From: Strigops habroptila
Lineage: Eukaryota > Chordata > Aves > Psittaciformes > Psittacidae
DNA length: 64,000 nucleotides
NCBI RefSeq assembly: GCF_004027225.2
Contig: NC_044282.2
Span: 63,787,725-63,851,724 of the forward strand
Direction: 5' to 3'
Both the position numbers and the translations under genes were made by a program. Under the pieces are notes generated by a model that saw only the letters and a list, made by a program, of their open reading frames with translations, was not told the origin of the DNA and did not search any database. How positions within the stretch are numbered: the first letter of the stretch is position 1; each line of letters begins with the position of its first letter. Positions 5,189 to 61,237 of the stretch are shown here, piece after piece.

Positions 5189-5729
5189 AATGGCTGTGTG
5201 CAGATAAGCATGGGCTCCAAGAGCCACCTTCAGCAACACCTCCCTGAAGAAGGAGCCCTGAGCAGACGCACCTCCTGTTTGCACTGCCAGCACAGACACA
5301 TAGGCGATGCAGTGCAGCCCTATGAGTACACGCTGGCACCGTTAGAAACCGCGGTGCCAGTAACACAGCCGTGGGGGCACGCACAAAGCTGCCCAGGCAG
5401 CTCTCCACGTTCACCGAGCTTGTGGGGAGCGTACTGAGTGCGGTACTGCCCCTCACCCGGTGAGCGCCGGACCCCATCGGCCCTCCTGAGCCTCCTCTTC
5501 ATGGCCAGGGGCTGCGGGTTAGGTGTGGAGCTAACGGCTGCGCCTGAGGAGCCGCCTCACGGCTCTCTAGGTGCTCTGTGACCTTGGCAACTCGGGGCTG
5601 CAGCGCGGCGGGCCGGAGCGCTCCCCGCGGGGACACACCGGCCCGGCCGCTCCCCACGGCCCGCAGCGCCGGGGCCCGCGCCAGTATCAGCCGTGGCGCC
5701 GGGAAGCAGACAAAAGCGGTGAGGGCTGC

Positions 5730-5754
5730 GGAGGAGGAGGAGGAGGAGGAGGCG
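5730..5754 (+). repeat. (GAG)n trinucleotide repeat
   Basis: A short GAG repeat in the CpG island, followed by GGCGGCCGCC and more purine-rich sequence. It lies upstream of the likely transcription start. Confidence 0.75.
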
Positions 5755-6190
5755 GCCGCCGAGGAAAAGGCCCCGCGGCCGGAGCGCTGGGCCCGGCCCT
5801 CCCGGGCCTTCGGCGCGTCCTCCCAAGCCCTCACACATCAAAGGCCGAGGGGAGGGAGCGGAGGGAGGGGGCGGTGCCGGAGCAGCCTCTAGGGGCGGTG
5901 ACGGGCGCGCTCGCCGGCCAATCACTTTGCCGGTGCTGTCCGATTGGCATGCCTGCTGACCTATCGGCTCCGCGCCTTCGCCCCCGCCCTGACTCGGAGC
6001 CAATGGTGGCACCGGTGGCCGCCGGGGAGGCGTGCCCCGCTCCCGGCGGAGGGAGGGGTGTGTGCGGTGGGGGCCGGGACGCAGAGCATCTTCGGGGCTC
6101 GCCGCCGCCAGGATCCGGCCCCGCTCTCTCGCCGCCTGTCCCCCCCGCTTCGCCGGCAGCAGGGCTGTTCCTCCTGTCTCGGTCGCGGCC

Positions 6191-6382
6191 ATGTCGTCGC
6201 CGTCGTCTGGAGAGCGGTACGAGGAGGAGGAAGAGGAGGACGGCGCCTACGAGAGCCAGGCCAAGCGGCTGAAGCCCAGCGCCGCTGCCGAGGAGGGCGA
6301 GATCGAGTACAGCGGCGCGGAGGAGAGCGAGAGCCGGCGGGACAAGCCCCCCGCGCCGCGCGGGGCGGGCTTTTCGGGCGCG
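6191..6382 (+). CDS. HNRNPLL: HNRNPLL coding exon 1 (residues 1-64)
   Basis: Begins at the ATG in GCGGCCATGT and ends before GTGAGG; phase 0. It encodes the unstructured acidic N-terminus: [10 protein letters not shown], a run of six Glu, then YESQAKRLK (a likely nuclear-localisation patch) and EEGEIEYS. The last codons (GAGFSGA) are Gly-poor compared with mammals. Confidence 0.93.
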
Positions 6383-9300
6383 GTGAGGGACGCGGCGCGG
6401 CCGCCGGGGAGGGGCTTGGGGGGGACCTTCCACCAGGATGCCGCCGGGGGGAGGGGGCCTGCGAGCCGCCCGCCCCGCCCCACGCTCCCTCCCCTCCCCG
6501 GGGACCAGGCTCGCTTCGCTCCCCGCCGCGTTCACCCGGTGCGGGCGGCGGGCTTCATCCCCGGCCACGCGGTGCCCCCGCGGCTGGAGCCCACTGTCCC
6601 TCTCCCCCGGGCATGGAGGCGCTTCCGGTGGGGTGTGCTCCCCCCGCGCCTTTCCCGTAGCCGGGGGAAGGCGGTGGGGGAGCCGGGCTGGGTCCCGCAC
6701 TCCTCTCCCTTCTCCCCGCGGCGGGCGTGCTCGGGGTGCGCGGCTGATTGTTCCTCCCCACAGATGCCTGGGGGAGAGGGACTGAGCTCCGCAGCCTGCT
6801 GGGGCTGCGTGGTTTGGGTTTCGCAGGTCTGAGATTGCTTCTGTTCCGTGGGCAGCTTGTTGCCTCCTGGGATATTGCCATTGCAAGTTTTGTGTTTGCC
6901 CTGTTGCTGAGTGTAACTATAGAAACGTAGAGCGGGGGAAGAAAGCGAGGCAGAGGGTTTCTTTCATCCTTCTGTTTTGCCGTTGTGTCTGGCGGCATAT
7001 GGCGACAAGGTTGATGACAAGCGATTACCTCCTTTTAAAATTCACTTGTATTTCTACTATCCCCCTCCTCCCCCGAATGTGAATAAGCTGGTTCACTTAT
7101 TTTTTTGCGACATATCTTTTATTCTTCACGAATCTAAGTATCAGGATAGTCCTTGACCCATAAATTTGAGCTAGCGATACTTTTGTGTCTGCTGTTTGAT
7201 TTTTTTAGCTAATTGTCTAGCTGATTTTAACCATTTTTCTTCTTGATGGCTTTTTCTGTTTCTTCCTTGTAAAAGCAAGATCAAGAGAACATTGGTTTAA
7301 TGGCAAACCTTGTAATTTAGAATAGCTCGTTTTATGATTTTTTTAAAAATGAACTTGCTTAACACTGGGATAAGTTAATGAGAGAGCATTTGCTGTTAAC
7401 ATCTCTCAGTTAAGCCTCTTGATGGAGAGGGTGCCTGCTAAATTAGCACAAAAGATTGCCAATAAATTGCAACAAAGATACATCTCTGGAGAGAGCTATT
7501 TTAATTCTATAGTTTCTTGGGACAGAGCACTGTCTGCAGTCAGAGTTTATCAGTGGGCTCTGTCTTAAAGGTCAGTTTTCAATGACATCCATATTCTTGC
7601 TTAAGTTACGTTGGAGTTTTGTCATGTAGGAGAGCTGGAAATCACACAGTGTTTCAAATAAGAACAGGATACTGCTCTTGCCTTTCCTCTTTTCTGTGGT
7701 ATTTTATGAAATCAGCTAGTTCTTACTTTTCTCCTTTTTTTTTCCCCCTTCATTCTGGGTTCTGGCTTGCGTTGTCTTCATGTTGACTTCAGTATCTCAG
7801 TTTATTGCAGTTAATGTGCAGAGAGGCAGAAGCTGTCTTGATGATAGAGGTTAAACTAGTTCCTTAAGAATAAGCTGTAACATCAAGTGAATACATGAGA
7901 AATGAACAACTGAGTGCTTTTGTTAGTAATTTTATGTGGGGCTTTTAATAGCAAAATGCTGGCATCTTCAATTAGAGTAAGCTAATGTGAATGATAGGTT
8001 TTTTTCTCTAATAGATTAGAAAAAAGTGCAGGAAACTCATTTATTCTTTGGCATATCTTAATAGTTTATCTCCAGGTAAATGTTCTTAGCTTATAAAAGT
8101 TGTATGTGGTTCAGGGCAAAGATACATAAGATTAAGGTAGGTTGAGAGGAGGGAAGAAGTGTAAGTATCCTGGGTTGCTCAGAAGAGAGCAGAAAACCAA
8201 TAAGTGGAGCAGGAGGAACTATAGGAGATGGGGAATTAGAAACAGAAATGGGGAAAAATGGACGACCAGCGTAAAAAGAGTGGTAGGAATCTGTTAGCCT
8301 CACTGTTGTCCATGTCCTGTCCCCTCCCCACTGCCAGCGTGTGTCCTAGAATAGTGGTGAACTGTACACTCACATGGATTATATGCTTTCTTTGTATAAA
8401 AGCTGTTTTGTGGTAGGACCTGCTAGCAGGTTGGTGGGGTCTCCGTGCTGGGCTACATTTATTATTGTGGCATTTTCCCATTCCTCTGGGATTGTTTCAT
8501 TGGGTCGAATAAGCCTTTCGTGCCTCTAAATTTTGTGGGTTTTTATAAATGGGTGCCTAGAAGTCTGTGTACAAGATCCAGGTGGGAAAACTGAAAGTTT
8601 ACTCTTCTTTTTCCTCTGTTCCCAGTCCTGTGGACACTCCTCATAGCCCAGAGCTGTACCATCTTCCTCATGGCTCGTATTAAGGCTGAGGAGCATGGAG
8701 AGCCAGGAACAGACTGGAATGTTGACTGGGGTACAAGCAGGAAGTGGTCTTACAGAAGCATTCTGTGTGGGAGAGTATGATTTGGAAGAATTGACTTTTA
8801 CAGAGGCTATGTTGAGTGTTGGTGAAGCTTTAGCAGAAGAGTCAGAATTGTGGTATAGCATAGGGTCAGGACACTGGGAGAATGTGGGTCAAGAGCTGTG
8901 TTTTCAGCTCCATCCACTCTTTCTCCCTTAAATTTCAGTTTTGTTGATTAATGTTGTATTTATACAACCTGTATTTTCTGTAGCATCCACCTGCCTCACT
9001 GTCTGTGACATACCTATTCTTAAATATGTCTTTGAAGCAGGGAAGATCTGTTATCCCGTTCTTACTGTTGGGGAAGTGAGATGTGGTGTCTAAATACACA
9101 AACATAACTATACCTTATCTTGCGGTAGCTTGTAGGAATGTAAACTTGTCGCTTCTCAGCTACTCTGCTGTAACTTCCCGTATGCAGTGTTCTTGCTTTG
9201 CAGTAAATGGAAAGCAAGCAGCTCACTTTGCAACTCAGTTGCTTCATGACTATGGCAGGCAGTTGTGGTAACAGTAGCTATAAGATAGTGACTTCAGATC

Positions 9301-15300: not shown

Positions 15301-18300
15301 TTAAGCAAGGACCAGCTTGTTCAAGAATACAAATAAGTCCATTTAGCCTGAAACTTAATTAACTGACAAAGCCTCTTGAGTTTGTCCGTGTCTGGATTTG
15401 GTCAACTACAATACTTCTGTTTATTTCCTCTAAGGTAGTTTTGTGTCAAAAGTAGTATTTTAAATTTCTTAGCAACAGCAAAAAAGTTTAATGTATCAGC
15501 TTTGAATGTGTTTTATAATTGTCATTTACTTTGATCCTTTACCTCAAATGGCTTTAGCAAGATTTTTTTTAATATTAATTGTAATTTTTGTAATTTAGTA
15601 AATATTTGTTTATTTTATTGGTTGAATTTTTTTTTTTTATTAAACTTCTTCATGAAAACAATTGCTTATTACTTATTTATCTTATAGCTTCATTTCTTTG
15701 TTTTGTGCAAATGCTTTAGGAATGTGTTGGCCAGGTTTGGGAAGTGTGAGCAGGGAGACTCACCTTCCTTATAGTCCTTGTTAGGCATTGTTTAGAAAAA
15801 AACATGACACTTACAGGACTTTGGCTTTGTTTTGAGTAAGTGTATAGGAAAACTTACTGTAATGTTTCTCTCACCAGTTATGTCATGATGATGCCATTTA
15901 AGCGCCAGGCTCTGGTGGAGTTTGAGAATGTAGAAAGCGCAAAGAAATGCGTAACGTTTGCAGCGGATGAACCTGTGTACATTGCTGGACAGCAGGCTTT
16001 TTTCAACTACTCAACAAGTAAGAGGATTACTCGGCCAGGGAACACTGATGACCCATCTGGTGGAAATAAAGTTCTCCTGTTGTCAATTCAGAATCCTCTC
16101 TACCCAATTACAGTGGTATGTTTCTTCTTTTTTTCTCTTTTTCTTTATAAAATAATAAAAGGCAGGGAGCAGCAATCTCTATTACATTATTTCCATTGTT
16201 TACCATTTGTTAAAATTATACACGCTTAACTTGAGTCAGGAATTAAATTCACATACCAAAGGTGTCCACCATCTTCACAAAAGTAACAGGCATGTTCTGG
16301 AAAAAAGGTTTTTTGGGGTGATTCAGTCTCGTACAGGTATTTTGCAATACATTTGAAGGCTGCAGTGGTCAGGATCTCGAAATGTTTAAGTTACTGTGTG
16401 CTTTGGAAATATTGCCAAACGTGTTGCCATAGTATCAAGAATGTCATTTAGAGTTTTTAGGCTGTGAGTGGTGTAAGTTTAAATAGCAATATTGTTTTCC
16501 GGTCTCAGGGGTTATTATGCAGTCCTTCATTCTGAAGTATTTCCTTTGTGGGAACTGGAAATCTTTATTTGTTGATTATCAACTGGAGTTTGATGGAATC
16601 TTCGTCACTTTTATTTCGGCTGATACATTCTGCTTTTCGGTATTTCAAGTCATACCGTATATATCGGTTGCATCCTAATTTATTGCCATCTGTTTATGGC
16701 ACACGTGCATTTTTTAATGATACAGATTATTTTTTGCTAGTCTTTAAGAACACGTTTTCTCATGCACTGAATGCTTATATTTTTCATAGAAATTTTATAG
16801 TACACATTGAATTGCACAGAAATATGCCATGAAAAAATTAAAAGTCTACTTTAAGCAGACTTGTAATTCTGTGATACAAGCATAAGTTACTTGTTTTTAG
16901 GGAAATATATGGGATAGTATGGATCAGTCAAAGTGTCCGGGTTGTGTGGAACCATATAACTTAAAGCAAGCATTAAGTTTTGCTAATGTGATGTATATTA
17001 TGGCGGCAAGTTGATTGAAACTTAGTATTCCTGAAATTGCTTCAAACAGTCAGTTCCATGTCATGCTTTTTGCTTCACTGTATTGTGAATATTGTGATAG
17101 GTTTTTGCCTGTTGATTCCTTAATGGATGCTGTATTATTTTTCTCCTGACAGTTTTCCTTATAGAAAAGCATGGCAAGAACGAGGTGCTTTTTCATCAGT
17201 GTTTAAAAATACACCTGCTTTGAGCTGTGTGAACAAATCCACTGGAAGTTGAAGTATTCTTTCCATGTGACTGTAATACAATTTTTGGAAACCGAGTTTC
17301 ATTCATGCATTTGAAATTTGTCTTGCATAAGTGTCTGAGTTGAGTGTAGATGCTTGAGGAAAGTGGTAGCAGAAGCATCCTTATGGGCTGGGAGAGTTTC
17401 ATGGAGATTCTGAGGATGAAACCTGTAGCACTGTAGCTGCTTTTCAAAAACAAACACTCCCCCCTCAACCTCTTCCTTTCTGCTGCCCCCAGCTGTTTGT
17501 CTAGAGTATACCAATGATCACTGGGAGCAGACTCCTAGCACCACATTGTAATCCCGGCCTGATGTGCAGTAAGGCGAGCTTTTCTCCTTACTATTTGGTT
17601 CCCCTACAGCACTGAAGGTGGAGTGTTAACAATGAGTTTGCATTAATGCAGTGTTTCTTGTCAGAAGGTTTCTCTGCCTTAAGGGAAGCAGCACAGCAAC
17701 CACTTTGCAGTGTCTTTGATGCAGGTGAATAAAAGTGAAATTCTCCTTTTGGTAAGCTACCTAAGCTTACATCATGGACTACACCCAGCTACTCTTCTGA
17801 AAGTGAACATGAACAATTAAAAAAACCCCTTTTAACCTTATGAAATGAAATGTTCCATAACTACAGCGTCACTTCGTCTCTTTTTGCTTTGGTAAAAATA
17901 CTGCAATGCATGCTTAAAAGGGAGCATAGGTTGAGACATGGATGGAATTAATGGGTTTAACACAGTTGAAGGTACTTGTTTAATGTTTGCATTAGTACTT
18001 GTTAGAGAAGTTTTTCCCTGTTTTTCAGATTTGACTATCTGTTCTGTATTAATCCATAAAAATGCTAGTCACAAATGTATAAACTGTATAGGGAAAGTTA
18101 TAAATGAAAAGTGAACAAGCCTTTTCTTTACTCTTTGGCATTTAAATGCCAATGCAAGAAAATGTTCTGTGGACCTACTGTTTGAAATGTCACATCTGAC
18201 TAAAATATATTTTTCTTCTTCTTTAGGATGTCTTGTATACTGTGTGCAACCCTGTTGGAAAAGTGCAGCGCATTGTTATATTCAAGAGAAATGGAATACA

Positions 18301-21300
18301 AGCTATGGTTGAATATCCTTTTTGAGTGTGATTTTTTTGTTGTATTTGCTGTAAGTTCTTGACTGCAGATGGGATAAATACTGTGGAATTTTGAGACCAA
18401 ATTATTTTTTAGTTTCTATATAAGACATGATGATTTCTATATGTCTGTAAGCACTTTAAACATTTTATCTTTATAGGAAAAAGACATTGTCAACAATGGT
18501 CTTTGTTTTATAACCATGTTTATAGGTGGCCCTAAGGCAGACATGAAATGTGTCATTCGTTTGATAACACGTTATACGCAAAGCTTCATGGCTTCTGCTG
18601 GTGTTGATACTCAAGAAATGGGTACAGGATTGCAGAGATGCAGTTTGACTTCTTCAGACTCCTCTAAAATAGTTCTAATATATATTGCTTGCGGCCATCT
18701 TAGGCCTCCTTGACCTGTTTATCATGTGTTGGGGAAATTCCCTGCTCTGTTATCCTACTGTTTACTCTATTTGTAGTGTTAAGTTGTACATGGGATGAAT
18801 GTTCAGAGTTGTTAATGTATTACTGCAGTTTGCAAAGTCCAAAGTCTGATATGATTATACCTTAGTTTATAAAACTCTGATAGCCCTCTTCCTAGAGACT
18901 GATTACCCTCCATTTCAGAGCTGTTATATGGACAAAATTGTACCAAAGTCTCAGAAATCCTTTTGTAATTTCAGATGCATCTGATGTGGCAGGCTTTACT
19001 AGTGGGGTCACTTTGGTAATGTATGTCTTAACCAGTGGTTGCACTAATGATTTGCCAGTCAAAAAGAATTACCCTGACTTCCATAAAAGCAAGCTAATTG
19101 CGGTGTATCTATGTAGAAGACTTAACTGTGCATCCTAACAAGCACTAGCGTGACTTACTGTGTATTGAGTTTGTGGTAAGCAAGCAGTATTTTCTGGATC
19201 AGGTGACTTGTACAGTTGGGGGTTATTTTGCATCTTGTGAAAGATTAGGGAAGTTGTAGAGAGGATCCTGCATGTAATCTGAGACTACTGTACTTCCGTC
19301 CTTTGAATTAAATTCTGCAACATGCCTTTTGGCAAAAAACCCAACCAGCAATTGAAAGAAAACTCAAAATGTGGGCAAAGTAATGCAGCAGTGTAGATGA
19401 ACAGCTTGGTGGGGGGGAAATAGTGAGCTTTGAGACAAGCCTTGTCTGAAAAGTTCAGAAATTGACACAAATTTCAATGCTAACTGCAGTACCCACTACT
19501 TTTGCAGATGTGCTTCCACAGCTCTAGCCAGTGTCCAGCAATTTCTTAGAGGCCTGCAAAACTTAACTCTTCTCACTCTTAAATTCCACAGTGAACCTAT
19601 ATCACCTTAGAAGAAGTTGGGTTGCAGGAATGTGGTAGAACACAAGGGATATGCTACTGGTACAGACTACTTCCAAAATGTCACTAAAATTATATTGCAG
19701 GATGGTCTGCTGCAAGGTTCAGGCTCTCTGACACCATATGTTATTGAATGTATGAGATCACGGATTAACATGTGCCAAGGCTCAGGTACATTTTTCTGCT
19801 AGTCATAGAACATAAGAGTATGTAGAGGATATGAAGTAACTTACATTTGGAGCCTGGTAAATGTATCTGCCTTGAGCAGTGGGTTTAAGGCAATCTGCTG
19901 CTTGTATTTTTTGATGCAAGATGATTATTTATTCACTCAAAGTATTTCTCTTAGTTCCGTGGTTTTATTTGGCTAACAAGCTAAAAAGGATGTACTTTTT
20001 TGTAGTTTTTTGCTGTAAAGTGATTACTGAGCTCATATTTTCTCTACCCACAGGTCTCTAGCTAATGCTAGTGGTGAAAAGGGATGCGTTGTCTTAAATC
20101 ACGCCTTCTTGCCCCTGAGCTCTGATCCCTTCCCAAATGCTGCAGCTTGAACTTTCCCTTCAAATATTCTCTAGGCTTGCTGGTAACTTTCTGTGTCTTC
20201 TGATGAATATTACTAAATCCACCAGAATATCCCCTTCCAAATGGCATAAGATCAGAGCATAAAGGAAGCTTGCATGTATACTATTCATACTGAAGAATTT
20301 ACTAATTTATGAACAGTCTCATTATGTGCTGCTTACATCTCAAAACCAGATGGTTAACATAAGTTGAACCCATATATATTTGTTGGTAATTTTTATATTG
20401 AAGTTTGTATAGAGATCTTGCATACGATAATGAAATATCTGCAGGCTACAAATATGAAGCCATATGAGAAGGGGCATGAATGAGACACCTGGGGGAAAAA
20501 AATCCTTAACGTGATGTGTATGTTTGAATCAGTGTTTTGCGCCCAGAAGGCGAAGGCTGCACTCAATGGAGCAGATATCTATGCAGGATGCTGCACACTA
20601 AAAATTGAATATGCAAGGGTAATGCTTGGACCTTCTCTTTTAATTTTACTAGAAAAATATATATAATCAAGACTTAACCTTTTTTGCTTTTACTCTGTTT
20701 GAACAGCCAACTCGACTTAATGTCATTAGAAACGACAATGATAGTTGGGACTACACTAAACCGTATCTGGGCCGACGAGGTAGGTTTTCATATGTTACTG
20801 CTGTAGATGTTTGACTGTACTAATGACAATCCTTTATACGTGGTCAGGCTCTATCGCAATAGTCATTTCAAAGTGCTTCTGAAGGCTGTATTCACAAGCC
20901 AGGAAATTAACCCTGAGCCCTAGTGCCCCCCTACTGCCGTGTGCTTGAGCCATTTAGTTCAACAAGGAGCCCACACCTCCAAGCACCTTCGCAGTTCTCA
21001 AGGACTTGCATTTCTCCAAGCAGCTCTCTCCCTTTGGAGGAGAGGAAACCTGGTACAGACTATTCCTTACAAACTACAAACTTGCACACTGCTTCTCCTT
21101 CGAAAGGACTCTTTTCCCCTATGTTGGACGAGGCATTAAGAAGGATAGAGGACTTCAGCAGGCTGACTCTACACTTCATCATGCACCACATCGGCATCAG
21201 CAAAAAACCCCCAAACAAACAAACAAACCCTCTGAAAAAACTCAGACTTGCAATTCACCTTGTCTGCATACTGCATGCACCACCACCACAAGTTTTTAAA

Positions 21301-24300: not shown

Positions 24301-27300
24301 AAATTTGTTTTAAGAGACACATAGGTAAATCCTGCTGTATGGTGTTATCTATACTAATGTGTGGTGTCTGTTTAGGAAAACTATTGGGTATTTCCATAAA
24401 CTTTAAATGTCTGCATCTCCTCATTGGCCACTGCCCTCAATCAACTTAAGTGCAATTTGTTACACAGATGGCAGTCTTTTTAATTCTGGTGTCCCAGGGC
24501 TACAGCTTGTGGTTTTAGACTGTGAATGAGAAATCATTTCTAAAATTAACAAGGACTCAAATTACTTTTTGCCTTTTAACTAAAAGCTTTGTGTCTTAAC
24601 TGGAGAAGTTGGGTGCATAGTTGTGCATACTAAACTGTTTTCTTTCCCTTCCCACATGTTAGACAGAGGGAAGGGCCGGCAGAGGCAAGCTATTTTGGGA
24701 GAGCATCCATCATCTTTTAGACATGATGGTTATGGTAAGTAACATAGGCAGGTGGTTATGATTTCTTTGTATGTAATGTGGAATTCTAAATATTCAATTA
24801 ATGCTGAACTGTGGACCATTACAGCATGAGTAGTTGTGCTGTATATGTGGTGCTGTCAGTCCACATTCTGAAAATGCTAGTGACGGACTGAAATCTATGT
24901 GCATTGTTGCAATACCTCTTCCTTCTGCGGAGAGCATGCAGCTTTACAAATTTATCCCTTGGAAGAATATTTCCTTTAAATTGCTATCACCCTAGCAATG
25001 GATGGAAAATGACATCTATATTGGGAAAGCAGTTTTCTTCTAGAAAATGGCAACACAGCCTGATCATTAGTTTCATGCAGCACAGAGCTCTTTGATGTTC
25101 TTGCATGCAAGAATTGTGAGCTTTGTGTTTCTTCTAATTCAGCTAATTCTGAAAAGTTATAGCTGTGTGACTGTATAAGAATGATGTTTTGGAATTAGTG
25201 CTATAAAGTGCCACAGTTGTTACCAATGCTATCTGTGCATGATGATCTGTCACTTTCATGTGTTGGGACTTCAGTTTCTCAACCCTGAAGTTCTTGGTCC
25301 CAGTTAGATGTGACTTTTCTAGTCATTTTCTCTCAACTGTCAGATGCAGTGTGATTTGTCTTGCCTCTTTATCTGCAAATAGATTTATGATATTTTACAA
25401 TGTAGGCTAACCTTCTACCTACTCTTTCCAAAGGTTCTTCAAATCTCCAGAATTTCCAAGTTCTACCTTGTATTCACTGATGTTCTTTTTTCATTTTTCT
25501 GACATATTCTCTCTTAAGAAGCGTGGCTGTCTCCTCCTATACCACTGTTTAACTCTCATTACTGCTTTTTTTTGCTGGGGAAAAAAGGACAAAAGGTTCC
25601 TTTTATACTTGGCTTATGTGAATTTCACACTATATTTGTCTTGGAACAACAGGGATCATCTCCTTGTCTGTAATACTGATGTTTCTTATAGAAAAGTATT
25701 GCATACTAGTAATGTTTCTTCATGGGGGAAAAAAAATAGAGAGAAAGATTGTTTATTTCCGCGAAACTTGTCACTTTAGTGAAACATAGGATGGCTTCAT
25801 TTTGCATTAATGCAGGGGTTTAAGTGTTCCTGTTTCTTCCAATTGAGCTGTTTGTAGAAAGGCAGTTTTCTGACTTCATCTCTTGTCTCTGGAAAAAGAA
25901 CTGTGTCATCTCGTCTGCTGTCCTCTGGCTAAGAGTTCATTCCTTCTGGTTTGTTTTCCCTACTATGTAATATTCTTTCTTGGTGTCATGGAGCTCTACA
26001 AGTAGATATGGCAATATTGCTGAAGGTTTATTGTAAATATTTCTTCCGATAGGTTTATGTTCAAGTATTTTTTGTGATGCAGAGAAGATACTATTTTTAT
26101 AGTTATTGAAATACCTTTTTTCACTTGTATAAAAGCAATACCATGAAACAGCTCCTTCCTCCTTGTCTGCTAATGTAAAAAAAGACTTGGAACATTAAAG
26201 GGAATAGAAGAACCGGGAGGTTTTTTTGTTTGGTTGGTTTTTGTGGGTGGTTTAGGTTTTTGGTGGTGTGGTTTTGGTTTTTTTTGTAATTGGAAAAAGA
26301 ATTAATGGAAACTGCTGTAATGTTTTTCCCCCGCCTCCTTTAAATACCCATTAGTTATGTGGGCTTTAATGCAAGATTAAGTACTGAAACTTGTTTCATA
26401 CAATATGAAAGCATGGTCTTTCATCTCCTTAGGGTCACACGGTCCTTTGTTGCCCTTGCCAAGCCGGTACCGAATGGGGTCTCGGGACACTCCAGAACTT
26501 GTTGCTTATCCGTTGCCCCAGGCATCTTCCTCTTACATGCATGGTGGAAATCCTTCTGGGTCAGTTGTCATGGTTAGTGGGTTGCATCAGCTAAAGATGA
26601 ACTGTTCAAGGGTCTTCAACCTGTTCTGCTTGTATGGAAACATTGAGAAGGTAAGGTATAATTTATTAGAAACTTGGAAACTACTATATAATTTTAATTG
26701 TTTTGGAAAAAGCCTGGTTGAGATGGTCTAAAAATATTTCCTGATAATTTATAAAACTCTTTGTTGGGCTGTTGCAATGTCATTTTTTTTCTCTTATCTA
26801 TCTTAGGTGAAGTTTATGAAGACTATTCCTGGCACAGCACTGGTTGAAATGGGTGATGAGTATGCTGTGGAAAGAGCTGTCACACATCTCAACAATGTCA
26901 AGTTATTTGGAAAGAGACTTAATGTCTGGTAAATATGTTTTATCAGATTAATAGTCTACCAGTGGGCAGGTGGAATGAGGTTGCAAACGGAAAATAGCTC
27001 ATTGTTCTGTTATCAATTTGCAACTATTATTTATTTATTGCTATTTATTTTGTTTCTGTTAATAAAGCATATGGGAATTACATGGATTGACTGTTAATAA
27101 ACTGTATCCCTTAATGTGTCTTATACATCCTTTCTTTTTTAAAGAAAGGTATCAAATCCAACCCATCTGTTCTCCCATTTCAAATTGTTGTAAAGAAATG
27201 TCATCTCTGTTCTGGTCAGATCAATAATTTGCATGCAAAGTATGCAAGTCTTAATTATTTAAGAAACTTTAACTATATATATCCTTAAATCCCAGTGTTT

Positions 27301-30300
27301 CCAAGCAGCATTCAGTAGTTCCAAGCCAGATATTTGAACTGGAGGATGGCACAAGTAGTTACAAGGATTTTGCAATGAGTAAGAATAATCGCTTCACCAG
27401 TGCTGGCCAAGCATCTAAGAACATTATCCAACCACCCTCTTGCGTGCTGCATTATTATAACGTTCCCCTGTGTGTAACTGAAGAAACATTTGTAAAGGTA
27501 GGCAGTTGAAATGACTGTGACATACAGTGCTTTGGGACTCTATCCTAGCTTTACACTGTGCTACTTTTTAAAGAGAAATAAGTGGGAGAATGGTTTTTTA
27601 AAAATAGGTTTGTAGTGGCTCTATACAGAAGCTGCTATATTTTCACAATTCTGGCATTATCCTCTCTTGGAAATAAAGTTGAGGAGCTTAATGTGTTGGG
27701 GTTTTTTGTGGAGGAAAAGACTCACATAAATCCAAATACAGGGAAAGTTAGAACTACAATTCATGAAAGATTTACTGACTCCTTGAGGTGGTTACTGTAA
27801 TGACTGATGGGATGTTTCAGAATGGAGAGGTGCATGCACCTGAAACAGTTTGCACAGTTCAGTCTTAAATGAACTCTGTATGCTTAAAACATGCAATACT
27901 GGGCTTCTCAAGTGGAGGCAGTGGTAAAACTGATGATGATTCAGTTAGTTCTTTTTCAGTTCAATATAAAGATGTTTTTTGAAGCTCTGTCTGAAGGTTA
28001 ACTCAGGCTCATAAGTGGTGTGCTTGTAAGTTCAGCTTCTGAGCTGCTGTATTGAAATGGGCATGTCAAAAAGAAGAGCTTGTTTTTATTTAAAAATGGT
28101 GCTTCAGGTAGTAGTGATAGCAGTACTCTAATGATTTTTTGCCAAAAAATCATTTCTCATGGGACAGCACAGATACAGGAGCCTTGTTTTGCATACTACA
28201 GAATGGTGTTCTAAAGAGTTACCAATCCAAACATATTTTGAAAACAGTAATTTGCCATAAATTCTTGGAAGCTCTCTTAGAGTCAGTATCTTAATTTTTG
28301 GAACTTAGAATTTTTGCTAATGTGTTTATGTGCATTTTTAGTGGAGTTTTACCTCTTATTTTATTTTTGTGACAGTTATGTGAGGATCATGAAGTTCTCA
28401 GCTTTATTAAATACAAAGTGTTTGATCCAAAACGTAAGTAAACTTTGACCTGTTTGGGGAGTTACTTGAATTCCAGTTTTGATAAGAACAAAGGAGACTT
28501 GACTGATCCCCTCCTTCCCTTATTTTTATTTCTCATTTTGACAGCCTCTGCCAAAACACTGTCTGGTCTGTTGGAATGGGAATGTAAGACAGATGCAGTG
28601 GAAGCTCTCACTGTACTTAATCACTACCAGATAAGAGTCCCAAGTAAGTCAATTTTGGTGATTTTACTGCTATAATTTTTTTTTCTTTCATGTTGATACT
28701 ACCTTTGTAAAAGGTGAGGCTTCAGCACCTCAGTCTGCAGCTAGAAATGGTGTTCTTATTGTATCTATTTGTGCTATTATATATATACACACACATAATG
28801 TACTATTTATAGTATTCAATCTCTAGTTTAGGTTCTGTTACTTTCTATTTAAATGGCATTCATTCTTCTTAAGGTTTGAGTCAACCTGTAGAACTCAAAA
28901 TATGCTCCACAATTTTTGAAGTTCTGGAAGGACACTGAAAAAGCCCAATTGGTTTGGGATAAAAAGGAGGAAGGCAGGAAGACCACTAAATTCCACTTTT
29001 ACCAAAATCAAACCTATGATTTTGGATAATGGATATTCATAGAATCATAGAATAGTTAGGATTGGAAAGGACCTTAAGATCATCTAGTTCCAACCCCCCT
29101 GCCATGGGCAGGGACACCACACACTAAATCATGTCACGCAAGACTCTGTCCAACCTGGCCTTGAACACTGCCAGGGATGGAGCATTCACAACTTCCTTAG
29201 GCAACCCATTCCAGTGCCTCACCACCGTCACTGTAAAGAACTTCTTCCTTATATCTAATCTAAACTTCCCCTGTTTAAGTTTGAACCCATTACCCCTTGT
29301 CCTACCACTACAGTCCCTAATGAAGAGTATCTAGTATCCTTGCAGGCCCCCTTCAGATACTGGAAGGCTGCTATGAGGTCGCCACACAGCCTTCTCTTCT
29401 CCAGACTGAACGGCCCCAACTTCCTCAGCCTGTCTTCATACAGGAGGTGCTCCAGCCCCCTTATCATCCTCATGGCCCTCCTCTGGACTTGCTCCAACAA
29501 CCCCATGTCCATCCTATGTTGAAGACACCAGAACTGTATGCAGTACTCCAAGTGAGGTCTCATGAGAGCAGAGTAGAGGGGCAGGATCACCTCCTTTGAC
29601 CTGCTGGTCATGCTGCTTTTGCTGCAGCCCAGGACATGAGTGGTTTCTGGGCTGCGAGTGCACACTGAAGCTGGTTCATGTTCAGTTTCTTGTCAACCAA
29701 CACCCCCAAGTCCTTCTCCTCAGGCTGCTCTGAATCACTCCTCTGCCCAATTTGTAGCTGTGCCTGGGATTGCCCCGACCCAGGTGTAGGACCTTGCACT
29801 TGGCTTGATTGAACTTCATAAGGTTGGTGTTGGCTCACCTCACAAGCGTGTCAAGGTCCCTCTGGATGGCATCCCTTCCCTCCAGTGTATCAACCGAACC
29901 ACACAGCTTGGTGGTGTCAGCAAACTTGCTGAGGGCGCACTCAATCCCACTGTCCATGTCGCCGACAAAGATGTTGAACAAGACAGGTCCCGACACCGAT
30001 CCCTGAGGGACACCACTCGTTACTTTTTTCCAACTGGATATTGAGCCATTGACCACAACTCTTTGCATGCGGCCATCGAGCCAGTTTTTTATCCACCAAG
30101 CGGTCCATCTATCAAATTGATGTCTCTCCAATTTAGAGACAAGGATGTCATGTGGGACAGTGTCGAATGCTTTGCACAAGTCCAGGTAGATGACATCAAC
30201 TGCTCTGCCGCTGTCTATCAGTTCCGTGGCTCCATCATAGCAGGCCACCAAATTGGTCAGGCAGGATTTCCCCTTAGTGAAGCCATGCTGGCTGTCACCA

Positions 30301-33300
30301 ACCACCTCATTGTTTTTCATGTGCCTTTGCATGCTTTCCAGGAGAAACTGTTCCAAGATTTTGCCAGGCACAGAGGTGAGACTGACTGGTCTGTAGTTCC
30401 CCAGGTCTTCCATTTTCCCCTTCTGAAAATGGGGGTTATATTACCCTTCTTCCAGTCATCGGGAACTTCACCTGACTGCCAGGATTTTTCAAATATGATG
30501 GACAGTGGTTTAGCAACTTCATTCGCCAGCTCCTTCAGGACCCATGGATGGATTTCATCAGGTCCCATGGACTTGTGCATGTTCAGGTTCTTAAGATGGT
30601 CTCGAACCTGATCCTCTCCTACAGTGGGCCTAAGGTCTTCGTTCTCACAGTCCCTGCATCTGCCTTCCAAGACTTGGGTGGTGTGGTCTGAGCATTTGCT
30701 GGTGAAGACTGAGGCAAAGAAGTCATTAAGAACCTCAGCCTTCTCCAAATCCAGGGTAGCCAGTTCTCCCAGTAACTTCCAGAGAGGGCCCACATTGTCC
30801 CGACTTTGTCTTTTTGTTTGCTGCATATGTATAGAAGCCCTTCCTGTTATCTTTCACATCCCTTGCCAGATTTAATTCTAGCTGGGCCTTAGCTTTCCTG
30901 ACCTGGTCCCTAGCTTCCCGGACAATGTCCCTGTATTCTTCCCAGGCTGCCTGTCCTCGCTTCCACCTTCTATAAGCTTCTTTTTTCCCCTCTAAGTTTC
31001 CTCAGCAGCTCCTTGTCCATCCATGGAGGTTTCCTGGCCCTCCTGCCGCACTTCCTTCTAGTCGGGATGCAACACTCCTGAGCTTGGAGCAGGTGATCCT
31101 TGAGTATCAACCAGCAGTCTTGGGCCCCCCTGCCCTCTAGGGCTTTATCCCATGGAACCTTACCAAGCAGGTTCCTGAAGAGGCCAAAGTCTGCTTTCTT
31201 GAAGTCCAGGGCAGTGAGCTTGCTGCGTGCTCTTCTCACTGTCCTGAGGATCTCGAACTTGCCCAACTCATGATCGCTACAGCCAAGGCTGCCCTGGAGC
31301 GTCACATTCCCAACCAGCCCCTGACGGCTGGTGAGCACGAGGTCAAGCAGGGCACCTCTCCTTGTTGGCTCCGCTCTTATTGCAAGAAGAAGTTGTCTTC
31401 CACACAATCAGGGAACCTCCTGGATTGCTTGTGCCAGGCTGTACCGCCCCTCCAGCAGGTACCAGGATGATTGAAGCTCCCATGAGGCCAAGGGCCTGCG
31501 AGCATGAGGCTGCTCCTATCTGTCTGTAGAGCGCTTCACCCACAGAGTCCTCCTGATCGGGTGGTCTGTAACAGATCCCCACAGTAATGTCCCCCATTGC
31601 TATTCTCCTTTTGACCCTGACCCACAAGCTCTCAGTTGGCCCATCACCTGTCCCCAGACAGAGTTCCATACTCTCCAGCCTATCACTGACATAAATAGCA
31701 ACTCCCCCTCCCCATCTGCCTGGCCTGCCTTTCCTAAAAAGCCTATAACCTTCCATTCCAACACTCCAATCATAGGAGCCATTCCACCATGTTTCTGTGA
31801 TGCCAGTGATATCATATCCCTATAGCCATGCACACATCTCCAATTCCTCTTGTTTATTCCCCTTACTATGGGCGTTTGTCTAGAGGCATCTGAGCTGAGC
31901 TCCAAATGAAGCTGACTCATTGGCTGGAGCGGCTGAAATAGCTCTGCATCACTCCAAGCCTTTATTACAGGTGCTGGCAACTGACCGGGAGTGTTGGGAT
32001 GGATCGATGCCTCCCTCCCCCAGCACATCTAGTTTAAAGCTGCCTTGACCAGCCTGGCAAGCCTCCTACCAAAGCAGCTCTTCCCCTTGTCAGACCAGCT
32101 CCACCAGCTTCCGGTAGACCTGGCCTCCCAAATCGAGTTCCATGTTCTAAATAACCAAACCCCTGACTACGGCACCACTGTTCTAACCATTTATTAACCT
32201 GCCACATCTGCCTGGCCTATTCAAGGTCCTCCCCTTTAACCTGGAGGATTGATGAAAAAACTATCTGAGCTCCAGAGCCCCTAAACACCTCTCCCAGGGC
32301 TCTGTAGTCCTTCTTAATGATTCCCAGTCTGCTGCTATCTGTATCGCTAGCACTCACATGGACCACAAGAAGTGGGTAATAGTCAGCGGGACTTACAGAA
32401 TCATAGAATGGTTTGGGTTGGAAAGGACCTTAAGATCATCTAGTTCCAATCCCCCGCCATGGGCAGGGACACCTCGCAGTAAACCATGTCGCTCAAGGCT
32501 CTGTCCAACCTGGCGTTGAACACTGCCAGGGGTGGAGCATTCACAGCTTTCTTGGGCAACCCATTCCAGTGCCTTACCACCCTCACAGTAATGGTGGTGA
32601 GGCACTCACAGTGCCTCACAGTAAAGAGCTTTTTCCTTATATCTAACCTGAACTTCCCCTGTTTAAGTTTGACGCCATTGCCCCTTGTCCTATCACTACA
32701 GTCCCTAATGAAGAGTTCCTCCCCAGCATCCTTTTAGGCCCCCTTCAGATACTGGAAGGCTGCTATGAGGTCTCCACACAGGCTTCTGTTCTCCAGGCTG
32801 AACAGCCCCAACTTTCTCAGCCTGTCTTCATACAGGAGGTGCTCCAGCCCTCTTATCATCCTCGTGGCCCTCCTCTGGACTTGCTCCAACAGCTCCATGT
32901 CCTTTTTATGTTGAGGACACCAGAACTGTACGCAATACTCCAAGTGAGGTCTCACAAGAGCAGAGTAGAGGGGCAGGATCACCTCCTTCGACCTGCTGGT
33001 CACACTGCTGGTGATGCAGCCCAGGCTACAGTTGGCTTTCTGGGCTGCAAGCGCACGCTGCCGGCTCATGTTAAGCTTCTCCTCAACCAACGCCCCCAAG
33101 TCCTTCTCTGCAGGGCTGCTCTGAATCTCTTCTCCACCCAACCTGTAGCTGTGCCTGGGATTGCCCCGACCCAGGTGTAGGACCTTGCACTTGGCTTGGT
33201 TAAACTTCATAGGGTTGGTGTTGGCCCACCTCACAAGCATGTCAATGTCCCTCTGGATGGCATCCCTTCCCTCCAGCGTATCAACCGAACCACACAGCTT

Positions 33301-35480
33301 GGTGTCGTCGGCAAACTTGCTGAGGGCATACTCAATCCCACTGTCCATGTCGCTGACAAAGATGTTGAACAAGACAGGTCCCGACACCGATCCCTGAGGG
33401 ACACCACTCGTTACTGTTTTCCAACTGGACATTGTTTACCACAATTCTTTGCGTGCGGCCATTGAACCAGTTTTTATCCACTGAGTGGTCCATCTATCAA
33501 ATTGATGTCTCCAATTTAGAGATGGCAGCCTCTCAGCAACATCCCTGATCTGAGCCCCTGGGAGGCAACACACCTCCCATGACACTGGGTCAGGCTGACA
33601 GATGGGTGCCGCTGTGCCCTTCAAAGTAGTCACCTACTACTGTGACCCACTGCTTTTACCTGAAGGCACCAGTAGTGATCCTCTTTACTGGTGCATCAGC
33701 AGGTTGTTCATTTGGTGCATTGGGTGTTTCCTCCTTAGCCCCCTGCAGAACTATGAAGCGGTTCTGGGCAGGGACGTCAGATTTAGGAGGAAGCCCCTTG
33801 CTTTTAATTGTCCTCTTCCTCCTTTTTTTGTTGTTTTTTGTTTTGCTTTGTTCCTAGCTGACATCTTCCTGCATTGCAGCCCTCTTACTTTCCTGTATGT
33901 GCTGTAATGGACGTTTGTGGCCCTGCACAGTTTGGGCTGGAGCAAGCAGTCCCGCTCTCCCTCAGCTTCCCTGACACCTTTCAGCTACTGGCAGTGTCCC
34001 GCAGCTCAGCTCCTGCTGCAGGAGGACCTCCAGCTTGGCGCACCGGGCGCAGCCCTGCCCATTGTGCACCCTCGCCTCAAGGGACCAGTCGAGGCACTTT
34101 GTGCACCCCGAGCTCTGCGCCGCAGCCTCCCCTCCCCTCGGCTCTGTCCGGTGCCGCCGCTGCCACCGCCGGGGCAGCCAGAGCAGAGCTCCTGGAGCGG
34201 GCCCTGCCCTGAGCCCAGCGCGCCCCGCCCCGCCCCGCCCGCTGCCCGCCCGCGCTGCTCCCGCGCTCCCCGGGGCGGGTTCTCCCTCCTCGGGCTGTGC
34301 CTCCCTCCTGGTGCCGCCCCGGTGAGTCCCGGCGCGCCTCAGCGGAGCTGCGGCTCCGGGGCAAGGCCTGGCGGGGGCTCGGGGCTCCCTCCGGTGGCTC
34401 TCGCTGCTCGGAATGACTGAAGTTTTGTATGTCTGTCAATAAATGCAGAGAAATCTGCGATATCCAGCCCATTGCCTAATATTATTTTAAACTACCATCT
34501 CCAAACTATTACGAATTAGTATCCCTGTCATGTGTTAACAGTTTAAATCTTCCCTATCCAACACCCTCTTCTCTTTTTTCCACCTCAGTAATGGACTGAG
34601 ATTGCTTCAGAGGCACAATATTTCGTAGGGTATTATTGATAATACGCTGTTCACAATTTAAGATTTATCTCAGTTTGGAGAAGTGATAACAGCAGAAGGA
34701 CTTACTCTTGCAACATGAAAAGGGCAAACCCTAATACATACTCAAATACAGCTGTCACAGGAAAAGAGAGCATTTTAACGCAGGGACTGGTGGTTAAGAC
34801 TTGCTGAAATAAGATTGTCTGAGGTTAGCTGAACCAGAAGGACATACCATCCACAACGAGAGAGGCAAATGTGTGCTGCCCTCCCTGGTCTTGGCAGCCT
34901 TTCCCAATGGAGAGGGGTTGTTTTAAGCTTTGCTTTCTGGAGAGGCCTAAAGGGTGTGCTGGACATCCTGCTGTTCCTTTCTCAAACACATGTAAATACT
35001 GTCCAGTGCCACTCTGATAGAAATGCCACATTCTAAGTTTTGACTTTCTTAAATATCTATGCCTTTTGTCTTTGAAATTGCCTGTTAAATACTACTTTTA
35101 TAAATAGTTTGGCTAGGAAGAGGGACGGTGATAATGGTAACATCTTTGTTATGTATAGTACAACATTTGGAATTCATCTACATTCCCTTGCAACCAGATC
35201 CATCACTTTGGGTTTTATGTCTAGAAAATGCTGGTGGACTACCAATAACACATACTGATAGATGATCTGGTGTCTGTGGGCCACTGGTGGGGTAGGTGGG
35301 GGAGGTATGAGCCTTAAATCTACAGAATTGGTGAACTTGTGAGATTATGCATGGTGATCTTGATAAGCAGGAGAGTTATTCTCAATAAAACACTCTGAGT
35401 ATGTTATATGTTGTCTCCTGACAGATGGCTCCAACCCTTATACCTTGAAGCTTTGCTTCTCTACTTCATCCCATTTATAG
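6191..35480 (+). CDS. HNRNPLL: HNRNPLL, heterogeneous nuclear ribonucleoprotein L-like (13 exons)
   Basis: Nuclear RNA-binding splicing regulator of the hnRNP L/PTB family. In mammals it binds CA-rich RNA and drives exon skipping in activated lymphocytes, including CD45. Thirteen exons join in frame to 543 codons plus TAG, close to the 542 residues of the human protein. The order is: an acidic N-terminus with an E-run and a QAKRLK basic patch; RRM1 about residues 76-150 (VVHVRGL, then ALVEF); RRM2 about 168-244 (VLLLSIQNP); a linker with GKGRQRQ and [12 protein letters not shown]3 about 336-409 (VVMVSGL); RRM4 about 455-540 (VLHYYNVPL). EEGEIEYS near the N-terminus and the lack of long Gly runs fit HNRNPLL rather than HNRNPL. 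All introns are GT-AG except intron 4, which is U12-type AT-AT. Translation starts at the first in-frame ATG of the CpG island. No frameshift or internal stop is present. Confidence 0.97.
9545..9620 (-). mobile_element. Short CR1 3'-end fragment
   Basis: The stretch reading GGTTGGCAGGGACCT and then GATCATCTAGTCCAACTGAC is the antisense form of a CR1 3' end. Only the last 70-80 bases are left. Confidence 0.6.
10376..10394 (+). repeat. Poly-C tract
   Basis: Two C-runs split by a GT, immediately followed by AG, so the tract looks like a strong polypyrimidine tract plus acceptor inside intron 1. Confidence 0.8.
11956..12022 (+). repeat. T-rich (TTG/TTA)n microsatellite
   Basis: A poly-T run followed by interspersed TTG and TTA triplets. 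Low complexity. Confidence 0.75.
14515..14633 (+). CDS. HNRNPLL: HNRNPLL coding exon 2
   Basis: Acceptor TTGCTAG, donor GTATGT; 119 nt, ending two bases into a Cys codon (TG|T). It encodes [13 protein letters not shown] followed by VVHVRGL (the RNP2 strand of RRM1) and the first RRM1 helix ([13 protein letters not shown]). Confidence 0.97.
14634..15877 (+). other. HNRNPLL: HNRNPLL intron 2 (1.2 kb)
   Basis: AT-rich; donor GTATGT, acceptor TCACCAG. Nothing recognisable inside. Confidence 0.85.
15878..16115 (+). CDS. HNRNPLL: HNRNPLL coding exon 3
   Basis: 238 nt, the longest coding exon. It completes RRM1 ([17 protein letters not shown], then [20 protein letters not shown]), encodes the [18 protein letters not shown] linker, and starts RRM2 ([15 protein letters not shown]). 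Ends in phase 0 before GTATGT. Confidence 0.98.
16116..18226 (+). other. HNRNPLL: HNRNPLL intron 3 (2.1 kb)
   Basis: AT-rich; donor GTATGT, acceptor CTTTAG with a T-rich tract. Nothing else recognised. Confidence 0.85.
18227..18312 (+). CDS. HNRNPLL: HNRNPLL coding exon 4
   Basis: 86 nt encoding [19 protein letters not shown], then [10 protein letters not shown], in the middle of RRM2. The last Glu codon is split after GA. Reading past the boundary gives a stop within five codons (TATCCTTTTTGA), so the exon must end here, directly before ATATCCTTT. Confidence 0.95.
18313..20521 (+). other. HNRNPLL: HNRNPLL intron 4, U12-type AT-AT intron
   Basis: Begins ATATCCTTTTT, a 9/9 match to the minor-spliceosome 5' splice site RTATCCTTT. 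A TCCTTAAC branch motif lies at 20503-20510. From the branch adenosine to the intron end is 12 nt, within the usual U12 range, and there is no polypyrimidine tract. The in-frame junction (GA|G TTT GAA TCA, giving E-F-E-S) places the last two intron bases as AT at 20520-20521, not the more usual AC. No AG acceptor nearby preserves the frame. Confidence 0.9.
20522..20618 (+). CDS. HNRNPLL: HNRNPLL coding exon 5
   Basis: 97 nt encoding the end of RRM2: [16 protein letters not shown], then [16 protein letters not shown]. Its start is set by frame and the U12 3' splice site; its donor is the ordinary GTAATG. Confidence 0.94.
20619..20706 (+). other. HNRNPLL: HNRNPLL intron 5 (88 bp)
   Basis: Very short intron with donor GTAATG and acceptor TTGAACAG. 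Confidence 0.93.
20707..20779 (+). CDS. HNRNPLL: HNRNPLL coding exon 6
   Basis: 73 nt encoding [20 protein letters not shown] followed by LGRR, the linker after RRM2. Ends one base into the next codon before GTAGGT. Confidence 0.97.
20890..21315 (+). promoter_or_regulatory. CA-rich intronic block, possible hnRNP L/LL-binding splicing element
   Basis: About 430 bases unusually rich in C and A on the + strand compared with the AT-rich rest of the intron. They include ACAC/CACA-type motifs near 20970, 21084, 21171 and 21308, an (AAAC)n tract at 21212-21227, and a CACCACCACCACAA tract near 21278-21291. hnRNP L proteins bind such motifs. Its placement in intron 6 matches the CA-rich enhancer known to precede a poison exon in HNRNPL. 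The functional reading is inference. An open frame across it is likely due to chance. Confidence 0.5.
23384..23415 (+). repeat. 16-bp tandem duplication
   Basis: TTTTCCTGAAAGATGA occurs twice back to back without mismatch. Confidence 0.9.
24663..24734 (+). CDS. HNRNPLL: HNRNPLL coding exon 7
   Basis: 72 nt encoding [20 protein letters not shown] followed by HDGYG, a basic linker between RRM2 and RRM3. Phases match on both sides. A 72-nt exon can be skipped without a frameshift. Confidence 0.96.
24735..26432 (+). other. HNRNPLL: HNRNPLL intron 7 (1.7 kb)
   Basis: Donor GTAAGT, acceptor CTCCTTAG. Holds a G/T-only tract at about 26220-26288; nothing else recognised. Confidence 0.85.
26220..26288 (+). 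repeat. G/T-only low-complexity tract
   Basis: About 65 bases made almost only of T and G, with GGTGGTGTGG and GGGTGG clusters, about 145 bases before exon 8. Confidence 0.7.
26433..26650 (+). CDS. HNRNPLL: HNRNPLL coding exon 8
   Basis: 218 nt. It encodes the proline-rich linker ([38 protein letters not shown]) and the first part of RRM3 ([30 protein letters not shown]). Donor GTAAGG. Confidence 0.98.
26651..26806 (+). other. HNRNPLL: HNRNPLL intron 8 (156 bp)
   Basis: Donor GTAAGG; T-rich tract and acceptor TATCTTAG. Confidence 0.92.
26807..26928 (+). CDS. HNRNPLL: HNRNPLL coding exon 9
   Basis: 122 nt encoding the RNP1-like second half of RRM3: [20 protein letters not shown], then [20 protein letters not shown]. 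Splits a Cys codon (TG|T) at donor GTAAAT. Confidence 0.98.
26929..27295 (+). other. HNRNPLL: HNRNPLL intron 9 (367 bp)
   Basis: Donor GTAAAT, acceptor ATCCCAG. Ordinary GT-AG, AT-rich. Confidence 0.92.
27296..27497 (+). CDS. HNRNPLL: HNRNPLL coding exon 10
   Basis: 202 nt encoding [20 protein letters not shown], the linker with [13 protein letters not shown], and the start of RRM4 ([19 protein letters not shown]). Donor GTAGGC. Confidence 0.98.
27498..28375 (+). other. HNRNPLL: HNRNPLL intron 10 (878 bp)
   Basis: Donor GTAGGC, acceptor TGTGACAG. Nothing recognised inside. Confidence 0.88.
28376..28433 (+). CDS. HNRNPLL: HNRNPLL coding exon 11
   Basis: 58 nt encoding [19 protein letters not shown] in RRM4. 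Ends one base into a Pro codon before GTAAGT. Confidence 0.97.
28434..28544 (+). other. HNRNPLL: HNRNPLL intron 11 (111 bp)
   Basis: Short intron, donor GTAAGT, acceptor TTTGACAG. Confidence 0.93.
28545..28643 (+). CDS. HNRNPLL: HNRNPLL coding exon 12
   Basis: 99 nt encoding [20 protein letters not shown], then [12 protein letters not shown], most of the rest of RRM4. Donor GTAAGT. Confidence 0.98.
28777..28797 (+). repeat. (AT)n(AC)n microsatellite
   Basis: Short AT then AC repeat just inside intron 12. CA repeats are the preferred ligand of hnRNP L proteins, but the tract is short. Confidence 0.7.
29275..31985 (-). pseudogene. CR1 ORF2 (endonuclease + reverse transcriptase), degraded
   Basis: Broken polyprotein of the older CR1. 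Endonuclease pieces: GITETWWNG at 31778-31804 (carrying the conserved Glu), [13 protein letters not shown] near 31690-31720, and CSDHE with [10 protein letters not shown] near 31200-31280. Reverse-transcriptase pieces: [17 protein letters not shown] near 30360-30400, [15 protein letters not shown] near 30140-30190, [11 protein letters not shown] near 29985-30015. The catalytic box reads FADT at 29914-29925 instead of FADD, so the second metal-binding Asp is lost. Several frameshifts break the frame (for example near 29840 and 30420). It would cleave the target and reverse-transcribe its RNA if intact. Confidence 0.88.
31995..32396 (-). pseudogene. CR1 ORF1 C-terminal part (esterase-like), interrupted
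   Basis: Reads [19 protein letters not shown], then [27 protein letters not shown] and [17 protein letters not shown]. This is the C-terminal, SGNH/esterase-like region of CR1 ORF1. One in-frame stop lies after GEDLE. The upstream half of the same frame resumes at 33523, on the other side of the nested CR1. Confidence 0.78.
32397..33522 (-). mobile_element. Nested, younger 5'-truncated CR1
   Basis: A 1.1-kb antisense CR1 consisting of the C-terminal half of ORF2 plus the 3' tail. Its 3' end (ATTCTATGATTCTGT on its own strand) abuts the older element's ORF1 at 32396-32397, and its 5' end lies at about 33518-33522, where five bases (AGAGA) could belong to either element. A 232-codon frame (32734-33432) stays open across the reverse-transcriptase end, with an intact FADD at 33304-33315, then ends in one TAA. 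It is clearly younger than its host element. Confidence 0.88.
33523..34130 (-). pseudogene. CR1 ORF1 N-terminal part (zinc-knuckle-like), interrupted
   Basis: Contains CTKC and, 15 residues later, [17 protein letters not shown] (the C-x2-C ... C-x2-C pattern of CR1 ORF1), with the C-rich part at about 34020-34105. It ends with [17 protein letters not shown] at the junction with the nested element. Some stops and frameshifts are present. Confidence 0.72.
33950..34412 (-). promoter_or_regulatory. GC-rich CR1 5' region resembling a CpG island
   Basis: A GC- and CpG-rich block with GC boxes (CCGCCCCGCCC near 34226-34240) that ends abruptly at about 34412. From its position it is the 5' UTR/internal promoter of the older antisense CR1, not a host promoter. 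Residual antisense promoter activity about 1 kb from HNRNPLL exon 13 is conceivable but not shown. Confidence 0.65.
35425..35480 (+). CDS. HNRNPLL: HNRNPLL coding exon 13 (last) and stop
   Basis: 56 coding nt encoding [17 protein letters not shown] and the TAG at 35478-35480; this is the conserved RRM4 end and C-terminus of the family. Confidence 0.98.
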
Positions 35481-60800: not shown

Positions 60801-61140
60801 GGGAGCAGGGCCATGAAGGCGAGCACCCCTCCCCTCGGGGGCTGGCCCGGGCAGCAGGGCCCGTCTGGTGGCGGTGAGGGCGGTATGTTTTGCGTCTCTA
60901 CCACAGAGGACGCTTCGACCCACAGCGTGTGGGACTTCGCCTCTTCCCTCCCTTCCCCGCTGCCCGGCGGTCAGGAGCCGCGCAGCACCGCAACAGTGAC
61001 AGGGAAAGCGAATGGGGAGCCCTGAGCGGGGCTGTGAGGGCGCATGCCCCGCCCCTCCCTGGGCGGGCAGCCGGCGGCGCTAGGGCCCGCCCCTGACCGC
61101 GCCACCGCCGCCGGGCGATAAAGGTCTCTCGGCGGAGCTC

Positions 61141-61148
61141 TGACGTCA
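61141..61148 (+). promoter_or_regulatory. cAMP-response element TGACGTCA
   Basis: Exact 8-bp palindromic CREB/ATF consensus, 28 bases before the ATG, inside the CpG island. Confidence 0.75.
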
Positions 61149-61176
61149 CAGCGAGTTAATTTTAAACCCGGACAAG

Positions 61177-61237
61177 ATGGCGGAAAGGGACGCGGCGCGG
61201 CGCGCGGGCCCGGCCCGCCAACGGCCCGCACCGGCAG
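61177..61237 (+). CDS. ATL2: Probable first coding exon of ATL2 (atlastin-2), partial
   Basis: ATG in the strong context GACAAGATGGCG; 61 coding nt (20 codons plus one base) up to a donor-like CAG|GTAACG. It reads MAERDAARRAG followed by an Arg/Pro-rich stretch. The M-A-E-x-D-x-A-A-R start resembles mammalian ATL2, and in mammals ATL2 lies next downstream of HNRNPLL on the same strand, which fits. Atlastin-2 is an endoplasmic-reticulum membrane GTPase that fuses ER tubules. The GTPase domain and membrane segments would lie in exons beyond this window. The similarity is short and GC-driven, so the assignment rests largely on gene order. Confidence 0.5.

Follow-up and report, generated by a model that had tools for sequence, protein, structure and literature searches.

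The splicing factor HNRNPLL regulates activation-induced alternative splicing in T cells and, under the name HNRPLL, is listed in Table 1 of PMC3564746 among the human genes with a U12-type intron. For this gene the same table gives alternative removal of a U2-type intron at the position of the U12-type intron, with 536 versus 537 residues and the change lying within an RRM. The 18 human twintrons are described there, as a set, as derived from U12-type introns and highly conserved in vertebrates (PMC3564746). The HNRNPLL case is repeated in a review, in which the U12-type intron is described as external and the U2-type intron as internal (PMC8329584), an arrangement that does not easily fit 536 against 537 residues.

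Among the minor introns of animals, AT-AT is the second most common non-canonical ending according to the text on Figure 6 of PMC10639083. It falls within the A-type class, of which 92% of the introns were affected by the loss of CENATAC in human cells, compared with 24% of the G-type introns (PMC8280824). Introns with non-canonical ends are often spliced with lower efficiency (PMC3584512), which by analogy may also hold for the HNRNPLL intron described here. The main text of PMC10639083 contains no occurrence of HNRNPLL, and the main text of PMC8280824 names neither HNRNPL nor HNRNPLL. The texts searched yielded no statement on AT-AT ends in HNRNPLL; these ends may well be on record in supplements or intron databases.

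Here we analysed a window of 64,000 nucleotides from the Strigops habroptila assembly (1,148,577,936 bases, 89 contigs) that carries HNRNPLL on its plus strand (Table 1). Intron 4 of this gene has the same terminal dinucleotides as the AT-AT minor introns of other animals (PMC10639083). Its letters and placement make it very probable that it is the ancestral U12-type intron of A-type of the HNRNPL/HNRNPLL pair, located in phase 1 in RRM2, with T as its last base instead of the usual C. A U12-type intron in HNRNPLL and AT-AT as a minor variant were known already, and by its sequence the locus is a well-founded new example. We further add an AT-AC intron at the corresponding position of HNRNPL, a CpG account of the AT end and the apparent absence of an in-frame U2-type alternative of the human kind.

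Table 1. Positions of the features discussed; coordinates without a contig name refer to the window
Feature	Position	Strand	Remarks
Window	C6:63787725-63851724
HNRNPLL exon 4	18227..18312	+	RRM2; 28 residues plus GA of a Glu codon, phase-1 end
HNRNPLL intron 4, putative U12-type (minor, A-type), ends AT-AT	18313..20521	+	2,209 nt, 38% GC
5′ splice site ATATCCTTT	18313..18321	+	matches the U12-type donor consensus
Branch-point sequence TCCTTAAC	20503..20510	+	putative branch adenosine at 20509
3′ splice site AT	20520..20521	+	12 nt past the putative branch adenosine
HNRNPLL exon 5	20522..20618	+	G plus 32 residues; 97 nt
HNRNPLL exon 6	20707..20779	+	frame check past the exon 4/exon 5 junction
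HNRNPLL donor	24735	+	GT-AG intron
HNRNPL	contig C80 (L012)	-	exon translations equal the HNRNPL chain over the compared stretch
Sodium-channel paralogue L044, AT-AA U12-type intron	C20, ~870723-870818	-	TCCTTGACCAGGCTTTAA/ATTATTCAGC
Further U6atac match	C7:57559841-57559958		second gene or pseudogene
Further U6atac match	C4:46038540-46038617		second gene or pseudogene
Further U6atac match	C2:61374593-61374718		second gene or pseudogene

HNRNPLL and the signals of its fourth intron

Exons 2 to 13 of HNRNPLL (12 exons) join to a single frame that stays open through to the stop codon. Boundaries other than those of intron 4 were placed by eye at the ends of tblastn matches and are confirmed by this open frame; exon 1 was located with the human protein as query. 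Of the remaining introns, ten can be read at both ends and all of these are GT-AG, which leaves intron 4 as the exception. Across the join of exons 4 and 5 the translation is identical to the human HNRNPLL RRM2 chains 7evs and 2e5i at 84 of 85 residues, without gaps.

Exon 4 ends in GCTATGGTTGA, the intron begins with ATATCCTTTTTGAG (in a longer reading, ATATCCTTTTT) and ends in GTGATGTGTAT, and exon 5 opens with GTTTGAATCAG. The consensus sequences of U12-type introns are RTATCCTTT for the 5′ splice site and TCCTTRAY for the branch point. The donor ATATCCTTT agrees with the former, and TCCTTAAC, close to the 3′ end, agrees with the latter. The spacing of 12 nt from the branch adenosine (20509) to the last intron base (20521) lies inside the optimum of 11–13 nt for U12-type introns (PMC3584512). 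Introns of this type are without a distinct polypyrimidine tract ahead of the acceptor (PMC3584512), and such a tract is likewise lacking in intron 4, where pyrimidines occupy 9 of the 17 positions at 20502-20518 and six of these nine belong to the branch motif. By its genomic letters and by the frame, the intron starts with AT and ends with AT.

A first-pass annotation of the window had proposed a U12-type intron with AT-AT ends in HNRNPLL at these positions. Its coordinates and letters are exact, and both frame and donor register agree with them; the minor-spliceosome donor and the branch adenosine 12 nt before the junction were found as described there. The assignment to gene and intron class is upheld by the protein match across the join, the open frame over 12 exons and the counterpart in HNRNPL.

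Taken singly, both motifs occur in the window at chance frequency. There is one ATATCCTTT against a shuffle mean of 0.66, with at least one copy in 49 of 100 shuffles, and there are 12 instances of TCCTTRAY against a mean of 10.97. Counts over the whole assembly were uninformative (570 forward and 862 reverse hits, with the reversed pattern giving 1,156 and 695). The first base of the 9-mer directly follows the end of one conserved exon, and the branch motif is located 12 nt ahead of the start of the next. It is this joint placing at a conserved exon pair, not the motif counts, that argues against chance, for which we estimated a joint probability of about 1e-8 or less from the shuffle means and the roughly 128,000 positions that both strands offer.

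A U12-like appearance was also noticed at the acceptor of HNRNPLL intron 9 (ATATCCTTAAATCCCAG, 27279-27295). This intron has the donor GTAAATAT and is a GT-AG intron, and the resemblance is probably due to chance.

Acceptor, register and competing readings

Downstream of the branch adenosine, the AT at 20520-20521 is the only AN dinucleotide at a distance of 7–18 nt; those that follow are AA at 19 nt and AT at 20 nt. Other candidate acceptors shift the frame and run into a stop, namely AC at 20509-20510, AT at 20528-20529 and AG at 20531-20532, 20545-20546, 20548-20549 and 20554-20555. The first-pass annotation had discarded the AC and two of the AGs on the same grounds, rightly so, except that the second AG sits at 20545-20546 and not at 20546-20547. 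It had also taken the start of exon 5 to be set by the frame. The AT-AT join (18313-20521) is indeed in frame, but so is a TA-TG join (18314-20522), and the proteins from the two are identical, GAG and GAA being synonymous codons for glutamate. Frame alone thus does not separate them, and it is the register of the U12 donor that leads to AT-AT.

That a U12-type intron is removed here with a different acceptor, either through the TA-TG shift or at an AT at 20514-20515, is very unlikely in our judgement. Both are in frame, and the former leaves the protein unchanged, but it does so at the cost of the U12 donor register. The AT at 20514-20515 ends just 6 nt from the branch adenosine, against an optimum of 11–13 nt (PMC3584512), and would insert two residues (Cys-Met) that are lacking in the aligned human HNRNPLL and HNRNPL chains.

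The T at 20521 is read in one assembly, and an ordinary AT-AC intron would lie behind it if this T came from a mistake in assembly or base calling, or from a minority allele. AC is the common ending of A-type introns (PMC8280824) and is present at the same position in HNRNPL. However, the sequence around 20521 reads normally and AT-AT introns are known (PMC10639083), so we consider such an error or allele improbable. The rarity that the first-pass annotation had ascribed to AT-AT was somewhat overstated in view of its rank among animal endings (PMC10639083).

The human gene provides a third possibility, the removal of a U2-type (GT-AG) intron, wholly or in part. The human twintron, with its 536 versus 537 residues (PMC3564746, Table 1), is taken here as the counterpart of intron 4 because the reported change is slight and lies within an RRM; the two share the gene and a U12-type intron. 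Unlike the human gene with its U2-type route (PMC3564746), the bird gene lacks a GT-AG pair that is both in frame and credible at its donor when donors at 18240-18519 and acceptors at 20380-20617 are scanned (in-frame pairs only, scored with a crude frequency matrix). Sixteen in-frame pairs were found, the best donor scoring 1.7 bits against 5.5 and 9.3 bits for two real HNRNPLL donors. The 15 pairs detailed each lose 10 to 35 residues, and none of them retains all residues but one. On this in-frame scan, U2-type splicing at this place in the bird appears very unlikely.

The paralogue HNRNPL and the endings of A-type introns

The paralogue HNRNPL contains a compact U12-type AT-AC intron of 164 nt at the same codon and in the same phase as HNRNPLL intron 4. 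Its donor is ATATCCTTCC, its branch site TCCTTAAC and its end TCCTTAACCCTCCCCTCAAC/G, i.e. CTCAAC/GTTCGAC, with the slash marking the junction. The two introns thus have in common the codon, phase 1, the ATATCCTT donor and the TCCTTAAC branch site, whereas they differ in length (164 nt versus 2,209 nt) and in the final dinucleotide (AC versus AT). Since both paralogues carry an A-type U12 intron at the same place, the U12-type intron in RRM2 is most likely older than the HNRNPL/HNRNPLL split. In a PTBP-type relative (L014), read by eye, the exon runs uncut through the homologous place. Among other genome contigs, a scan picked up one locus (L018) in a bacterial bin, where 20 residues match at 70%, which we attribute to chance; in viral contigs no relatives were found.

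In HNRNPL the junction AC/G forms a CpG across the splice site, and the corresponding junction of HNRNPLL is AT/G. The terminal T of HNRNPLL is a probable product of a single C-to-T change in this CpG, as judged from one paralogue pair and with the direction assumed because AC ends are more frequent. Much more tentatively, the AT-AT minor introns of animals might have arisen largely by such CpG decay, a methylatable AC/G drifting to AT/G and being tolerated by the minor spliceosome, with HNRNPLL and HNRNPL as an example; should this bird have no usable U2-type escape, HNRNPLL would rely wholly on CENATAC-dependent splicing. The AT-AT end points to CpG change as a simple way in which this recognised class of unusual splice sites could arise; our literature search found no related paper on such an account.

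The endings of further A-type introns were read in sodium-channel genes, for which a channel segment was used as query. The search gave 39 matches, of which 30 were fetched and 23 of these scanned, covering exons 2 to 4. A ATATCCTT donor was found at the end of exon 2 in nine of the 23 loci, and two further donor-like matches lie elsewhere. Seven of the nine acceptors were readable, five by script and two (L058 and L059) by eye, while two masked loci (L057 and L060) were dropped from the count. Six of the seven end in AC and one, in paralogue L044, ends in AA. No branch motif is visible in L058, and the acceptor of L038, which is too distant from its donor for the same locus, was paired by position. 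From these six AC ends and one AA end it follows that variation in AT-AN endings is ordinary. Together with HNRNPL and HNRNPLL, nine A-type introns from chosen, not sampled, genes comprise seven AC, one AA and one AT ending.

Minor-spliceosome components and consequences for HNRNPLL

The snRNAs of the minor spliceosome were detected in the assembly, with Rfam matches over the cut-off for U11 (one), U12 (one), U4atac (one) and U6atac (four); an Rfam scan across the window itself returned no matches. The best U6atac match, on C16, scored 130.6 bits. Among the three further ones, a strong match reached 99.2 bits and the other two 35.2 and 34.5 bits at a cut-off of 33. For CCDC84/CENATAC, three stretches exceeded the Pfam cut-off, two of which read through one TGA that is probably part of an intron. 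The U12 snRNA sequence TAAGGA can pair with TCCTTA of the intron 4 branch site. The donor stretch TCCTTTTT (18316-18323) could form 8 base pairs, including one G-U, with the 5′ end of U11 (AAAAAGGG), a run given as an illustration and non-specific in itself, since the longest-run measure placed the HNRNPL donor elsewhere on U11.

U11 and U12 would be expected to recognise ATATCCTTT as donor and TCCTTAAC as branch site, and with both strong signals present the spliceosome would take the AT, the only AN dinucleotide there, at the optimum of 12 nt. Signals, spacing, frame, paralogue and the matches to genes of the machinery all point to splicing at AT-AT. AT-AT introns are within the CENATAC-dependent AT-AN class (PMC8280824), and by extension from human cells, in which the dependence was measured, the bird HNRNPLL intron 4 may require CENATAC as well.

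If intron 4 is retained, the frame reads MVEYPF followed by a stop, and if exon 5 (97 nt) is skipped, the frame shifts; full-length HNRNPLL therefore needs intron 4 to be removed. A dependence of HNRNPLL on minor-spliceosome activity, which is not new for this gene, would follow from this anatomy. As the sequence evidence indicates such a need for both HNRNPLL and HNRNPL mRNAs, the splicing regulation exerted by the two proteins would be coupled to the activity of the minor spliceosome. The AT-AT end of HNRNPLL also offers a natural test of the variation tolerated at the last base of A-type introns, and annotation programs that demand canonical ends may misplace exon 5.

Elsewhere in the window, long open reading frames overlap on both strands at 5500-6900 and at 60900-61900, a pattern that suggests GC-rich promoter islands. 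HNRNPLL exon 1 sits inside the first of these, and the second may mark the start of the next gene. On the minus strand, long open reading frames at 29255-33435 resemble LINE reverse transcriptase, presumably of the CR1-like kind, and similar pieces are found near 45.9 and 51.4 kb of the window.
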